From Oscillospiraceae bacterium (GTDB lineage Bacteria; Bacillota; Clostridia; Oscillospirales; CAG-272): a stretch of 54,072 nt of DNA. Positions 31,053-36,182 of the stretch are shown piece by piece. Within the stretch, counting starts at the first letter, position 1. Every line of letters begins with the position of its first letter. The stretch spans positions 1-54,072 of the forward strand of contig SVTO01000012.1 in NCBI GenBank assembly GCA_015063745.1, read 5' to 3'. The notes beneath the pieces were generated by a model that saw nothing but the letters and a program-made list of their open reading frames with translations, ran no database searches and was not told where the DNA came from. Both the position numbers and the translations under genes were made by a program.

Positions 31053-32151
31053 GAAAATCACACGCTGGGTACCGACTGCTTCCCTGATCATATTCTTTAT
31101 CGGCATAGCGGCGGCTGTCTGTCACCTCGGCTTTCTCCTGTCTCCCGGTTTTGCGGACACCTTCAATCTGACCGCAGGCACATTTCTGCGCACGGTTACG
31201 GCCAAGCTGACCTGCTGGATCCCCATGTCTCTGGCAGAAACGATCATTCTGTCCCTGCCGGTGACGCTGCCGGTAATTTTCGCGGTCTGTCTGCGGAAAA
31301 GTGCGGGCGGAAAACGGCAGATGGTACGCTGCCTGCTGGCTCTGCTGTCCGTTGCGGTATTTCTGTATGCCCTGTTCGTATTCACCTTTGCTCCCGGCTA
31401 CCGTGCCCCCACGCTGGATACCAAACTGGGACTGGAATGGAAGGAGATCACCACCGACGAGCTGTACGATACCACCAAGGTGGTAACTGCCCGGCTGAAC
31501 GAACTGGCGGATCAGATTTACTATGCTGAGGAGATTGGTTCCGTACGTCCTTACAGCCATAAGGAGACGGTGGAAAAATGTCTGGCATCCTATGAAAAAC
31601 TGGCGGAGGAATACAGCTTCTTACCCGTACTCCGCGCGCCGGTAAAGCAGATCACCCTGTCCGAATGGATGACCTACACCCACATTTCCGGGATGTACAC
31701 CTATTTTACCGGAGAAGCGAATCTGAACACCAATTATCCGTATTTTGTAAACGTATACACCACAGCCCACGAAATGGCCCACCAGCGGGGTATCGCCAGA
31801 GAAAACGAAGCGAACTTCATTGCTTACCTTGTATGTATTCAGTCCGACGACCCGTACATGCAGTACTGCGGTTATCTGAATATGTACGAATACCTGACCA
31901 GTCCTTTGCACAAAAACGCGCCCCGGCTGTATACAGTAATCCAGGGTGCGCTGGATGAACGGGTACGCTACGATCTTGCGTGTTACAGTGCTTTCTTTGA
32001 AAAATACCGTGACAGCGTAGCTTCCGAAGTAAGCGACGCGGTGAACAACACCTACCTTGTTCTGCAGGGCCAGGAAGACGGCACCAGAAGCTACGGTATG
32101 GTTGTGGATCTGGCGGTGGCATATCATAAAAAGGCAGGAGATATCGGATGA
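31045..32151 (+). CDS. DUF3810 membrane metalloprotease-like protein
   Basis: 368 residues from ATG 31045, favoured over 31033 by the AAAGGA spacing. Three hydrophobic helices lie in the first 120 residues; the extracytoplasmic part contains the zinc-peptidase motif HEMAH (H242-E243-H246), followed by RGIARENEANF with the probable third ligand, as in DUF3810 gluzincin-like proteins. Predicted to act on the outer face of the membrane, on an unknown substrate. It overlaps the preceding pseudouridine synthase gene and the following secreted protein gene (ATGA). Confidence 0.85.
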   Translation: MFKKITRWVPTASLIIFFIGIAAAVCHLGFLLSPGFADTFNLTAGTFLRTVTAKLTCWIPMSLAETIILSLPVTLPVIFAVCLRKSAGGKRQMVRCLLALLSVAVFLYALFVFTFAPGYRAPTLDTKLGLEWKEITTDELYDTTKVVTARLNELADQIYYAEEIGSVRPYSHKETVEKCLASYEKLAEEYSFLPVLRAPVKQITLSEWMTYTHISGMYTYFTGEANLNTNYPYFVNVYTTAHEMAHQRGIARENEANFIAYLVCIQSDDPYMQYCGYLNMYEYLTSPLHKNAPRLYTVIQGALDERVRYDLACYSAFFEKYRDSVASEVSDAVNNTYLVLQGQEDGTRSYGMVVDLAVAYHKKAGDIG

Positions 32152-33209
32152 GACAGACCATACGGAACATTTTGCTGTTCTTGCTGGCGGCAGTCCTTCT
32201 GGTTATTCCCGTCAGCGGTTATGATACACCTGAGGGGTATGTATCCAGTCTGTACCATAATGATGAAGCATGGTACAAGGACAGCATGGCGCCGCTGCTT
32301 GTGAAGGACGGCGTATACCATATACCGGCGGACATTCTGGAAATGTTTCCCGGCATTACGGTGCAGGAATACGAAGAGAAAAAGAATCTGCTGATCCACA
32401 ATACGAACAGCGGCAGTTATGCTTCCATTGTTTACAGTACGGCATCCGCTGCGGTAAACGGAGAGATTGTGGGGGACGTGGATATATTCCGGCAGGAAGG
32501 GTACTATTATATCGGAGCGGAATGGATCGCCGGTATCTGCGGACTGGAATGTACGTTCCAGAAGGATCGTTCCGGCAATATGCTGCTTCGTCTGACCAAC
32601 GGGGAACAGAGACGTTCCTTTGACGAATTGGTGGACGACTATACCAGCACAGCCGAACAGGAAGAGACCAAATCCGAACCGATTGAAACGGTCATTCCGG
32701 AAGACGACCATGTGAAAAAGATTTATCTTGTCTGTACGGACACTCCCGGCACGGACAACACACCTGCGGCTTTACTGAAGAAAAACGGATTGGCTTACAC
32801 GGAATTTCTGGTAAAGGAATCGGGACCTGACCGGATTCTTGCCGATGCGGGCATTGTGACCGGCGGTGTCTTTGCCGAAGACGGTACGGTAATTGCTGCC
32901 GAGCAGGTGAATGACCGGGTACAGGCGCTGTTATGCCGCAGACTGCCCATGGCATTATTGCCGGACGACGGCGATACAGAAGCATTCAAGCAAGCCGGAT
33001 ACATTCCGATCATCCCGGATTTCACCGTAAACTATCAGACGGACCCGGACGTAGTTTTTGAAGATATGCTGAAGCATTTTCAGGATAACGACCACGCTGT
33101 TCTGCAGGTAGGTACCGACGGCTGTTCCCAGCGCATACTGGTATTGCTGAAAGAACTCCTCAGCTGGAACGAAAACTACAAAGCCGTCAGTCTGACCGAA
33201 TGGGAATAG
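32148..33209 (+). CDS. Secreted protein: copper-amine-oxidase-N-like domain plus degenerate NodB-like domain
   Basis: 353 residues with a signal peptide (hydrophobic LLFLLAAVLLVIPVSG). Residues about 25-150 resemble the copper-amine-oxidase-N-like domain found at the surface of Clostridia (VKDGVYHIPADILEMF). From about 185 the pattern KIYLVCTDTPGTDNTPAALL, then TEFLVKE, follows the start of polysaccharide deacetylases (IALTFDDGP...LL...ATFFLVG), but the catalytic Asp-Asp is missing (CTDTPG) and no HxxxH motif follows. It may be a binding protein rather than an enzyme. Co-translated with DUF3810. The domain assignment is by pattern only. Confidence 0.6.
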   Translation: MRQTIRNILLFLLAAVLLVIPVSGYDTPEGYVSSLYHNDEAWYKDSMAPLLVKDGVYHIPADILEMFPGITVQEYEEKKNLLIHNTNSGSYASIVYSTASAAVNGEIVGDVDIFRQEGYYYIGAEWIAGICGLECTFQKDRSGNMLLRLTNGEQRRSFDELVDDYTSTAEQEETKSEPIETVIPEDDHVKKIYLVCTDTPGTDNTPAALLKKNGLAYTEFLVKESGPDRILADAGIVTGGVFAEDGTVIAAEQVNDRVQALLCRRLPMALLPDDGDTEAFKQAGYIPIIPDFTVNYQTDPDVVFEDMLKHFQDNDHAVLQVGTDGCSQRILVLLKELLSWNENYKAVSLTEWE

Positions 33210-33212
33210 TGA

Positions 33213-33570
33213 GTGGGATATAGTTCATTTTGAACTGTAAGACAACCGTCCCACTCTCCGAGAATTTCTCAGGCGAGAAATTCTCCAAAGATGGTACCGT
33301 GGTTGGTGGGGATATAGTTCATTTTGAACTGTAAGTAAACCGTCCCACTCTCCGAGAATTTCTCAGGCGAGAAATTCTCCAAAGATGGTACCGTGGTTGG
33401 TGGGGATATAGTTCATTTTGAACTGTAAGACAACCGTCCCACTCTCCGAGAATTTCTCAGGCGAGAAATTCTCCAAAGTTGGTACCGGAATTTGGTGAGG
33501 ATGGCTTGAATGGATATAGTTTATTTTGAACTGTAAGTAAACCATCCCACCTCCCGAAAAATCCCCGGAC
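33213..33570. repeat. 94-bp tandem repeat array with nested hairpins
   Basis: Three contiguous near-identical units begin at 33216, 33310 and 33404 (period 94), then a shortened, diverged fourth unit begins at 33512 after a 14-nt longer third copy. Every full unit has a 4-bp hairpin GTTC/GAAC within GGATATAGTTCATTTTGAAC, an 11-bp perfect stem GAGAATTTCTC/GAGAAATTCTC with an AGGC loop, and a GGTACC palindrome flanked by CCAA/TTGG. A weak outer GTGGGA/TCCCAC pairing can enclose the first hairpin. The array begins 4 nt after the stop at 33209. The unit is not a multiple of three, so it is non-coding. No terminator-like T run is present. Its function is unknown. Confidence 0.85.
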
Positions 33571-33612
33571 AAAAGCGTTGGCAAAAATGTATTGACAGAA
33601 CGGAGAAACAGA

Positions 33613-34323
33613 ATGGATAGCGTAAAAAAGAAAATCCTCGTAGTGGAGGACGAAAAAAAGATTGCCCAGATGCTGGCGTACAATATTAAAAAAGAAGGGT
33701 ACGACTGCACTACGGTGTTCGACGGTGAGTCGGGCCTGACGGAAGCATTGGGCGGCGGTTACGACCTGATCTTACTGGATATCATGCTGCCGCGTATGAA
33801 CGGTTATGAGGTATGCGAAAAAGTGCGTCTGGTCAGTCAGGTGCCGATCATTTTTCTGACCGCTAAGGAGGAAGAAAAGGATAAGATTCTCGGTCTGGAT
33901 ACCGGTGCCGACGATTATGTGACCAAGCCCTTCTCCTTTGCGGAGCTGATGTCCCGAATCCGTGCCAATATCCGCCGCAGTTCCGGTGAAGTGGTGGCGG
34001 AAAAGAAGAGTGCTCAGGATGTGATCTGTATCGGGGAACTGAAGGTGGACAGCAGCCACTACCTGGTGACCAAAAACGACGAACCCATCGAACTGTCCAA
34101 GAAAGACTACGATTTCATCGCTTTCCTGGCCGCCAATGTAGGAAAGGCCTACTCCAGAGAAGTTCTGCTGGAAGAAATCTGGGGTTATGACGACTACTAC
34201 GGCGATATCCGTACTGTGGACGTAACCGTATGCCGGATCCGCAACAAGATTGAGGACGACCCGGCAAAACCGGAATACCTGATGACCAAGCGCGGTGTTG
34301 GCTATTATCTTGCCAGACATTGA
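33613..34323 (+). CDS. OmpR/PhoB-family response regulator (WalR-like)
   Basis: 236 residues from ATG 33613 (GGAG upstream); an in-frame TTG lies 7 codons earlier. The receiver domain has the acidic pocket EDE near residue 12, phosphoacceptor D56 in LLDIMLP, T83 and K105, then a winged-helix DNA-binding domain ending RNKIEDDPAKPEYLMTKRGVGYYL. It regulates transcription, likely in response to cell-envelope state given that it precedes a histidine kinase, two YycH/YycI-like proteins and then murA. The resemblance to WalR is suggestive, not decisive. Confidence 0.93.
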   Translation: MDSVKKKILVVEDEKKIAQMLAYNIKKEGYDCTTVFDGESGLTEALGGGYDLILLDIMLPRMNGYEVCEKVRLVSQVPIIFLTAKEEEKDKILGLDTGADDYVTKPFSFAELMSRIRANIRRSSGEVVAEKKSAQDVICIGELKVDSSHYLVTKNDEPIELSKKDYDFIAFLAANVGKAYSREVLLEEIWGYDDYYGDIRTVDVTVCRIRNKIEDDPAKPEYLMTKRGVGYYLARH

Positions 34324-34352: not shown

Positions 34353-36182
34353 ATGTTTAAAAGTCTGTATTTTAAGATCGTGCTGATCCTGCTGATATTC
34401 ATTGCGGCAGTCATGTGTGCGGTAGCGGCGATTCTGATGAACGGCGTTACCACGTACTATGTCGATGCATTCGCGGATCAGATGGAAGAGTGCTTCGGGG
34501 ACGACACCATGCTGCGGCAGGAACTGACAGCGGCGGCGGACCGTAAGGAGTATTCTGCGGATATGAAGTCCATTCTCACTTCCTACGGCGGTATTCTGGG
34601 GATTGACCGGTACAGAAACTACTATATCCTCAATCTGGATGCCGAAATGCTGGCCGGATCGGATGCGGAGCTGGGTGCTTCTCTGGAAGTGACGCCGAAC
34701 CTGCTGTCTGCCATCGGCGGTGAGAACAAAAACCGTATCATCAGCGGCACCGAATATGCCGACTGGGCGGTACGGATCGACAACGGCGACAACCATTGCA
34801 TTATTTACGTAAAAGATACGCTGGAAGAAATGAGGGAACTGAACCAGGTGGTATTTTCCATCATTCTGCAGGCCATGGTCATCGGTATTCTGATCGCCAT
34901 CCTTCTTTCCTTCTTCCTTGCCAAAGCCATTACCTCCCCCATCCAGAACCTGACCTACGGTACCCAGCTTGTGGCATCGGGGCGGTTCGATCATGCCATC
35001 GAAGTCAATTCCAGCGACGAGTTGGGTATCCTGACGGAAAACTTCAACCACATGAAGGAACGGCTGAAGGGAACACTGGACGAAGTCTACAGCGAACGGG
35101 AGAAACTGGAAACCATCCTTGCCTGTATGCGTGATGCGGTCATGACCTTCTCCACCGACGGACGGCTTCTGCTGCGGAACAACAGTGCGGCGGAATTGTT
35201 CGGCGATGATCTGAAGCAGGGCAGAATGACGCTGGAGCAGTGCTTTGAAAAACTGGATATTCCTCTGCAGAAGGACGGCAACAGTATCCGTCTGACCTCT
35301 GCGGATGCGGCTGTGGAAAGAACCCGCGACGGTTTTGTTTTCCGCGACCGTATTTTCGGCGACCGCGTATACGACGTCAGCTTCGGGATTATCCGGTATG
35401 CGGAAAAGGGCAGAATGGTGCCCGGCTGCATACTGATCTCCCACGATGTAACCGGCCGTTACGAGCTGGACGAAAGCCGTCGTGAATTTGTGGCCAATGT
35501 ATCCCATGAGCTGCGTACGCCCCTTACCTCCATCAAGGGTGCGGCGGAAACGATTCTCAGCGATAACGAAATGGATGCGGAAACCAGAGAATACTTCCTC
35601 GACAGCTTTATTCTGGCGGAATGTGACCGTATGACCCGTATCGTATCCGACCTGCTGACCCTGTCCCGTCTGGACAACAACCGTACCCAGTGGAACATCG
35701 AGCAGTTCGATATGCATATGCTGCTTCAGCGTCTGGCGGATGTCATGCAGAAGGAATCCAAAGAACATAACCACATCCTGACCCTGCAGGCGGCGGACGT
35801 AACGCCGATCACAGGGGACAAACAGCGTCTGGAACAGGTATTTGTGAATATTCTGTCCAATGCCATCAAGTATACACCCGACGGCGGTAAGATCGATATA
35901 TCCGTCACCGAAGGGAAGAACCGGGTGATCACAACCATCACGGACAACGGTGTGGGTATTCCGGAAAAGGATATCGCCCACCTGTTCGAGAGATTCTACC
36001 GCGTGGAAAAATCCCGTACATCCGATGCGGGCGGCACGGGCCTTGGTCTTGCCATTGCCAAGGAAATCGTGGAAGCCCACGGCGGACGGATATCCGTGCA
36101 GAGCAAGACGGGCGAAGGAACCTCCGTTGTGGTGGAACTGCCCTATGAATGCAGACTGAAATCTACGCATAAAGCGGAATAA
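34353..36182 (+). CDS. Sensor histidine kinase, HAMP-PAS-HisKA (WalK-like)
   Basis: 609 residues. Two membrane helices (about 9-29 and 166-190) enclose an extracytoplasmic sensor; then HAMP (190-245), PAS-like (250-365), HisKA with phospho-acceptor H385 in NVSHELRTPL, and HATPase_c with N503 (LSNAIKY), DNGVGIP at 531 and GTGLGLAI at 561. The architecture matches WalK/VicK. It phosphorylates the upstream regulator. The gene starts 29 nt after it, with AAGGA before the start. Confidence 0.93.
   Translation: MFKSLYFKIVLILLIFIAAVMCAVAAILMNGVTTYYVDAFADQMEECFGDDTMLRQELTAAADRKEYSADMKSILTSYGGILGIDRYRNYYILNLDAEMLAGSDAELGASLEVTPNLLSAIGGENKNRIISGTEYADWAVRIDNGDNHCIIYVKDTLEEMRELNQVVFSIILQAMVIGILIAILLSFFLAKAITSPIQNLTYGTQLVASGRFDHAIEVNSSDELGILTENFNHMKERLKGTLDEVYSEREKLETILACMRDAVMTFSTDGRLLLRNNSAAELFGDDLKQGRMTLEQCFEKLDIPLQKDGNSIRLTSADAAVERTRDGFVFRDRIFGDRVYDVSFGIIRYAEKGRMVPGCILISHDVTGRYELDESRREFVANVSHELRTPLTSIKGAAETILSDNEMDAETREYFLDSFILAECDRMTRIVSDLLTLSRLDNNRTQWNIEQFDMHMLLQRLADVMQKESKEHNHILTLQAADVTPITGDKQRLEQVFVNILSNAIKYTPDGGKIDISVTEGKNRVITTITDNGVGIPEKDIAHLFERFYRVEKSRTSDAGGTGLGLAIAKEIVEAHGGRISVQSKTGEGTSVVVELPYECRLKSTHKAE

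Follow-up and report, generated by a model that had tools for sequence, protein, structure and literature searches.

Directly after the stop codon of one gene and ahead of a two-component regulator, a 54,072-nucleotide stretch of DNA from an Oscillospiraceae bacterium (here called the window) carries a short array of hairpin-bearing repeats, and the question this locus raises is what such an array is and how it came to lie there. The array spans 33211–33551 and consists of three 94-bp units and a fourth unit that contains only the first of two hairpins (H1), between a gene that we refer to as gene X and a response regulator/histidine kinase pair that resembles WalR/WalK (Table 1). Tandem Repeats Finder reports a period of 94 with 2.9 copies and 97% matches at 33215–33487, the only other row in the window having a period of 21; the copies start at 33215, 33309, 33403, and 33511, and pairwise identities among the three full units are 97.9, 92.6, and 90.4%. 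The three units and diverged fourth of the original prediction are thus real, the fourth being a partial unit, and the perfect 11-bp stem that it described (GAGAATTTCTC/GAGAAATTCTC) is that of the second hairpin (H2). Other details needed adjustment. The array does adjoin a stop codon, but its start had to be corrected: the first H1 begins one base past the stop codon of gene X. The GTTC/GAAC hairpin is present, but only as the inner part of a larger hairpin, and it is the outer stem, not the GTTC/GAAC sequence, that the family keeps. A GGTACC palindrome is likewise present but sits in the linker, which varies between arrays.

Table 1 Features of the array and its neighbours in the window.
Feature	Position	Strand	Description
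Gene X	32148–33209	+	353 aa, no Pfam family; stop TAG at 33207–33209; C-terminus ...SLTEWE
In-frame TGA after the gene X TAG	33210–33212	+	Seen in the sequence; GA forms the first two bases of the H1 stem
Unit 1, H1	33211–33256	+	Outer stem GAGTGGG/CCCACTC, inner stem AGTTCA/TGAACT
Unit 1, H2	33260–33285	+	GAGAATTTCTC-AGGC-GAGAAATTCTC
Linker after unit 1 H2	33286–33304	+	CAAAG..., contains GGTACC; array-specific
Unit 2	33305–33379	+	H1 left arm altered; H2 at 33354–33379
Unit 3	33399–33473	+	H1, then H2 at 33448–33473
Unit 4, partial	33494–33551	+	H1 only, without H2; possible stem GGTGaGGATGG/CCATCCCACC by eye; weak model match, E 0.014
WalR-like response regulator	33613–34323	+	Response_reg and Trans_reg_C; ATG at 33613
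Histidine kinase	34353–36182		Downstream of the response regulator

Both strands of evidence on folding point to strong structure, with z scores relative to shuffles of −4.3 for 33213–33308 folded as RNA and −6.9 for 33211–33285 folded as DNA. As predicted, the unit is no terminator: a consensus scan for a GC-rich hairpin followed by a T-run found no intrinsic terminator on the plus strand of 33150–33660, and a consensus scan found no promoter between the array and walR. Nor is the array a CRISPR, since its units stand head-to-tail with linkers that are repeated within the array and no unique spacers. Rfam, run over the whole window at the gathering threshold, identified one tRNA only and nothing on the array; matches obtained at loose thresholds (eight loci with E up to 5 and two loci with E up to 1) included none on an element.

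The unit measures ~75 bp and is built from two hairpins of different kinds, always in the same order and orientation: first H1, whose 8-bp stem encloses ~31 nt of loop, then H2, with a stem of 10–11 bp. Between genomes the sequence of the H1 stem is wholly changed (GAGTGGGG, GAGCGGG, GAGTGAG, GCACTTGC, GAGCAAGG, GCAGTTGG, GCGCGAAG, and GAGCCGGG) and pairing is retained, the complement lying ~31 nt away each time. When 30 diverse units were aligned with MAFFT without structural information, 92.3% of cells were paired, as against 54% or less in slid controls, and double changes occurred in 12 of 19 stem pairs. Compensatory changes in the stems, a matter that the original prediction had raised, are abundant (89 doubly changed cells versus 26.4 ± 4.4 in shuffles). 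G-U pairs account for 33 of 2928 stem cells (23 of 1258 in H1 from 147 units and 10 of 1670 in H2 from 152 units) and for 37 of 451 in 21 tRNAs of the studied loci, a comparison that is suggestive, since the copies counted are related and non-independent and the ARAGORN tRNA brackets omit mismatches. The scarcity of G-U pairs in stems whose pairing is kept suggests that selection has acted on a DNA hairpin rather than on an RNA such as the RNA-processing module that had been proposed. A-C mismatches outnumber G-U pairs in both hairpins, with 35 in H1 and 120 in H2, so that the wobble strand test for H2 favours the minus strand; a reading of this bias as antisense RNA was set aside and the bias taken as DNA-level, 85 of the 120 mismatches falling at a single stem position. 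We note that in three genomes (G022, G023, and G222) H2 also takes a longer form, namely a three-way junction that contains two nested hairpins, one a conserved hairpin around AAAATGG...CCATTTT or a variant of it and the other variable (L076:6003–6121, L077:2583–2692, L054, L123, and L096).

Searches of the genome and its relatives recovered copies elsewhere, so the array is not confined to this locus. By blast, contigs C67 and C17 of the source genome carry at their ends another set of units, 93 bp in length (the C17 copy starts at a stop codon), and matches occur in three other genomes of the genus among 147 relatives. A strict H2 pattern found 46 stretches in a genome collection that may exclude the source genome, all of them from four MAGs that bear the label Oscillospiraceae or Clostridia (SIG677, RGIG2226 from goat colon, and RGIG4529 and RGIG4573 from roe deer rectum), and gave no match in viral contigs; phage, plasmid, and viral collections likewise contained no match to the element. 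A covariance model, applied with E up to 0.01 and at most 150 candidates scored per genome, recognised the unit in 12 of the 25 genomes examined from the genus, the source genome being one of them. The number of matches, some of them partial or opposite-strand echoes, varies by species within the genus, from 0 up to 126 in G023, with 64 in G024, 41 in G016, and 11 in the source genome. Under the stricter filters used for the family, 12 of 196 genomes in 7 of 71 genera were positive, the source genome included; four of the 12 lie within the genus, and the matches of another four reach only 4e-5 to 6e-5. So far, then, the repeats have been found in one family of Clostridia, the family within which the model was run and with which the MAG labels Oscillospiraceae and Clostridia go together. 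Titles and abstracts returned by literature searches contain no description of an H1-H2 repeat family, which is apparently undescribed. Arrays are often at contig ends (L005, L006, L027, L028, L033, and L129), from which it appears that the repeats may have broken these MAG assemblies and hidden the true array lengths.

Gene context was assessed with a small codon-usage gene caller and, separately, with a test for a sense ORF of at least 50 codons ending at H1. Such an ORF ends at H1 in 41 of 53 arrays from five genomes (2/4 in G000, 1/2 in G008, 11/12 in G016, 20/26 in G023, and 7/9 in G222), compared with 7.7% of positions drawn at random from the same loci (1761 of 22976). Arrays of other genomes are at a stop in 8 of 18 cases, and those of a G024 subfamily in 1 of 23. 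The gene caller placed a gene on the 5′ side of 50 of 61 arrays, co-directional in 44. How the stop is supplied varies among the 49 stop-adjacent arrays outside G024: 24 use a TGA formed by the first H1 bases, nine carry a full stop codon that lies one base ahead of the stem, eight read on to a TAA in GAGTGGGAATAA or variants of it, giving C-termini such as EWE, and eight have other offsets. The PurH encoded upstream of one copy aligns through its last residue with known PurH, which indicates that the TGA is the natural end of PurH, and the TatD upstream of another ends within 2–8 residues of known TatD ends; a cyclophilin compared in this way gave no clear answer. Because the element follows many genes that are mutually unrelated, a function specific to walRK, as the original prediction had also entertained, is unlikely. 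The family is thus high in copy number, extragenic, and near ORF 3′ ends, as REPs and REPINs are, except for the G024 subfamily.

Some copies lie upstream of genes (for example L029/L064, L069, and L079) or far from any stop. One array that is not at a stop (L029:4470–4516) starts, by eye, a few bases past a promoter-like TTGCAT-17-TATAAT, near the would-be transcription start. The G024 subfamily (L141–L159) takes the form of single ~77-bp H1-H2 units embedded in a dispersed repeat that is longer, at several hundred bp. Outside the window, the source genome also contains a repeat of ~730 bp, which extends over at least 700 bp at 14 sites, is partial at ~5 others, and in part occurs also in G008; in the example at L121:1985–2899 (contig C24) it includes a perfect inverted repeat of 38 bp as well as flanking units, each ~62 bp, no gene is called over it in L121 or L122, and two of its copies (C24 and C2) have an adjoining H1-H2 unit.

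Relatives show what the walR locus looks like when it is empty. Gene X has a match in 23 of 25 genus genomes, the source genome included. In eight relatives the spacing from gene X to the response regulator is −8 to 46 nt, versus 403 nt in the window; nine other gene X loci have a different downstream gene and five are unreadable, and the covariance model detected no element in any of the 22 relatives' loci. After guaA, an element is present in 1 of 30 loci (G007, by eye), two of which have less than 90 nt of flank. Copies downstream of guaA in two genera (L128/L160; one in G222) are 74% identical over gene and element, and a copy between the same two genes in G226 and G255 is 85% identical. 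From the empty walR sites and the distribution at guaA it follows that copies differ between species and that some persist. In the two arrays of the source genome, units are 90–100% identical within an array and 56–60% between arrays, as local amplification would have it. The last unit of many arrays is incomplete and varies in length, and several arrays end with part of the H1 start. As the right ends vary, a target-site duplication is not established; we saw neither an excision nor a fresh insertion, and we noticed no inverted repeat joining the unit ends.

Dispersed copies, tandem arrays, kept pairing, position at stop codons, and relatives with an empty site are direct observations, and we consider it probable that they reflect a family of short, non-coding, REP-like, non-autonomous mobile DNA repeats that land at gene 3′ ends and amplify locally. 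A host-useful 3′-UTR or intercistronic RNA element seems to us unlikely. Its H1 and H2 would form in the mRNA directly behind the terminating ribosome, protecting the upstream message from 3′ exonucleases and lowering downstream expression, here that of walRK. The flush position after stop codons and the strong RNA folding favour it, as do hairpins with a T-run seen by eye after several copies (L102, L027/L042, L037/L058, and L038/L081), and the long-kept copies at guaA and at the G226/G255 gene pair would also fit a host function; against it stand stems with few G-U pairs, upstream genes that are unrelated, copy numbers that swing so widely between species of the genus, a walR site that is empty in eight relatives, and copies upstream of genes or far from stops. 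Simple local tandem duplication, a satellite without wider meaning, accords with the higher unit identity within than between the source-genome arrays and may still describe how arrays grow, but as a full explanation it is refuted by the dispersal of conserved two-hairpin units across many loci, genomes, and genera, and we give it almost no credence.

That the units are genuine REPs or REPINs, mobilised by a RAYT (REP-associated tyrosine transposase), is, in our judgement, improbable. Known REPs are concentrated at ORF 3′ ends, provide stop codons, and occur in tandem (PMC3733652, PMC3116915); the first of these sources describes GTAG/CGTC REPs near ORF 3′ ends that can supply the stop and repeat together with flanking DNA. 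Pfam Y1_Tnp over its cut-off is absent from the copy-rich G023, G016, and G024 and has some matches in G222 and G008; the conclusion from Pfam that copy-rich genomes have no RAYT proved wrong for G023, as Pfam misses divergent RAYTs. A looser search found such genes, in G000 and G023 among others, four of which match NCBIfam REP_Tyr_transpos at 60–70 bits (cut-off 80). Within the genus, 7 of the 12 genomes with elements have RAYT-like matches (the source genome and G023 among them, with fragments only in G008 and G016), as do 3 of the 13 without; in other genera the figures are 5 of 8 with elements and 10 of 19 without (G025–G043). One RAYT is common to G023 and G222, with 77% identity, and on contig C16 of G222 RAYT fragments lie ~600 bp from an array (L123). 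Five genomes (G024, G005, G009, G017, and G018) nonetheless have elements and no RAYT match, so the presence of the one has no clear link to that of the other. RAYT loci carry GTAG hairpins of their own (in 37 of 39 loci, several overlapping, versus 18 such hairpins in 100 other loci that total 629 kb) and contain no H1-H2 unit detected by the model beyond an 18-nt partial match with E 0.78. The REP tag, an unpaired GTAG/CGTC at the palindrome foot, is not conserved outside G024: among 130 units, GTAG occurs at 1 left foot, 0 times between the hairpins, and at 12 right feet, and CGTC at 1, 0, and 1, with GACG at 5 left feet. In G024, GACG precedes H1 in 21 of 23 units and CGTC follows H2 in 19, and this subfamily may carry a CGTC-type tag, yet its units are not at stops and its genome has no RAYT match. 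Separately, RAYT-like genes hold inverted GTAG hairpins within their own reading frame, for example GTAGGGGGCGACGTCCCCGACGCCCC (L276:2044–2613, L277:6243–6818, and L288–L317). A reverse transcriptase (PF00078) was rejected as mobiliser: of 25 genus genomes 12 have one, 5 of the 12 that bear elements and 7 of the 13 that do not, which shows no link; it is absent from the source genome, G023, G005, and G009. More remote than a RAYT is the idea that the units are satellites or decoy sites of a tyrosine integrase targeting the end of guaA (...GAGTGGGAATRA), which the H1 start matches. The 125 bp after guaA in G000 (L225) and G001 (L213) match with 100% identity the sequence flanking an array in G023 (L239:538–664, contig C80), joined at attgagtgggaat, and arrays that end with part of the H1 start add to this; but all three loci are contig ends, membership of the flank in an integrative element is presumed, a 13-nt chance match is not very rare, and other genomes use unrelated H1 stems (GCACTTGC, GCGCGAAG, and GCAGTTGG). 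The identity of the flanks looks as if a mobile element that targets guaA had used an array unit as a site.

If the units are REP-like mobile repeats, as we prefer, the moving form would be a folded single DNA strand carrying H1 and H2, on which an enzyme would act in trans. Recognition would be mainly by shape, since stem sequences drift freely while Watson-Crick pairing is kept. In most genomes insertion would take place at gene 3′ ends, in one orientation and with the foot of H1 at the stop codon, the original stop often being replaced by a TGA or TAA carried at the start of H1. Some copies would then multiply in place, giving tandem units that include a stretch of linker, and in the window one such event would have separated gene X from walRK. 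The repeat would end up in the mRNA, where an effect is plausible and control of walRK possible, any such effect presumably being secondary. Only tentatively do we suggest a new class of non-autonomous mobile DNA, recognised by shape and inserted by an enzyme other than a RAYT preferentially at translation stop codons, which termination or mRNA 3′-end processing possibly exposes. A REP-like design with near-base precision at stop codons would make it testable whether palindromic repeats come to lie at gene ends by insertion preference or by selection, and the array may serve as a natural insertion that separates a regulator operon from the gene upstream of it.

Integron attC sites occupy the 3′ ends of genes; their stems differ freely in sequence, and it is the folded single strand of DNA that is recognised. 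By this general description the H1-H2 unit is like them in position and stem variation, and would be in recognition, but its copies follow ordinary chromosomal genes and have no cassette structure. Ends of the IS200/IS605 type and the MITEs derived from them also bear subterminal secondary structures (PMC6006769), whereas no transposase gene lies between H1 and H2 and G023, G016, and G024 are without Pfam Y1_Tnp over the cut-off. Compared by description, the BOX, RUP, and SPRITE repeats of Streptococcus pneumoniae are likewise small, structured, and interspersed in a Gram-positive host, BOX containing tandem boxB and SPRITE being enriched near CDS 3′ ends (PMC3049150); RUP and BOX have terminal inverted repeats, of which we noticed none in the H1-H2 unit, and target-site duplications, which are not established for it, and SPRITE is terminator-like with a T-rich tract. 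Of the three options in the original prediction, a BIME/REP-like mobile repeat fares best: like REPs, BIMEs, and REPINs (PMC3733652, PMC3116915), the units are non-coding, dispersed, hairpin-forming, and mostly between co-directional or convergent genes. They differ in being ~75 bp long with two unlike hairpins whose order and orientation are fixed, in occurring in Clostridia, and in having stem sequences free to vary, without a conserved GTAG/CGTC outside G024 and with no H1-H2 unit at intact RAYT genes. Because the tag and RAYT tests failed in this way, we file the family as REP-like and not as REP. If this reading is correct, REP-like repeats would gain a new, clostridial design, one with two unlike hairpins, mostly no tag, and no link to a RAYT.
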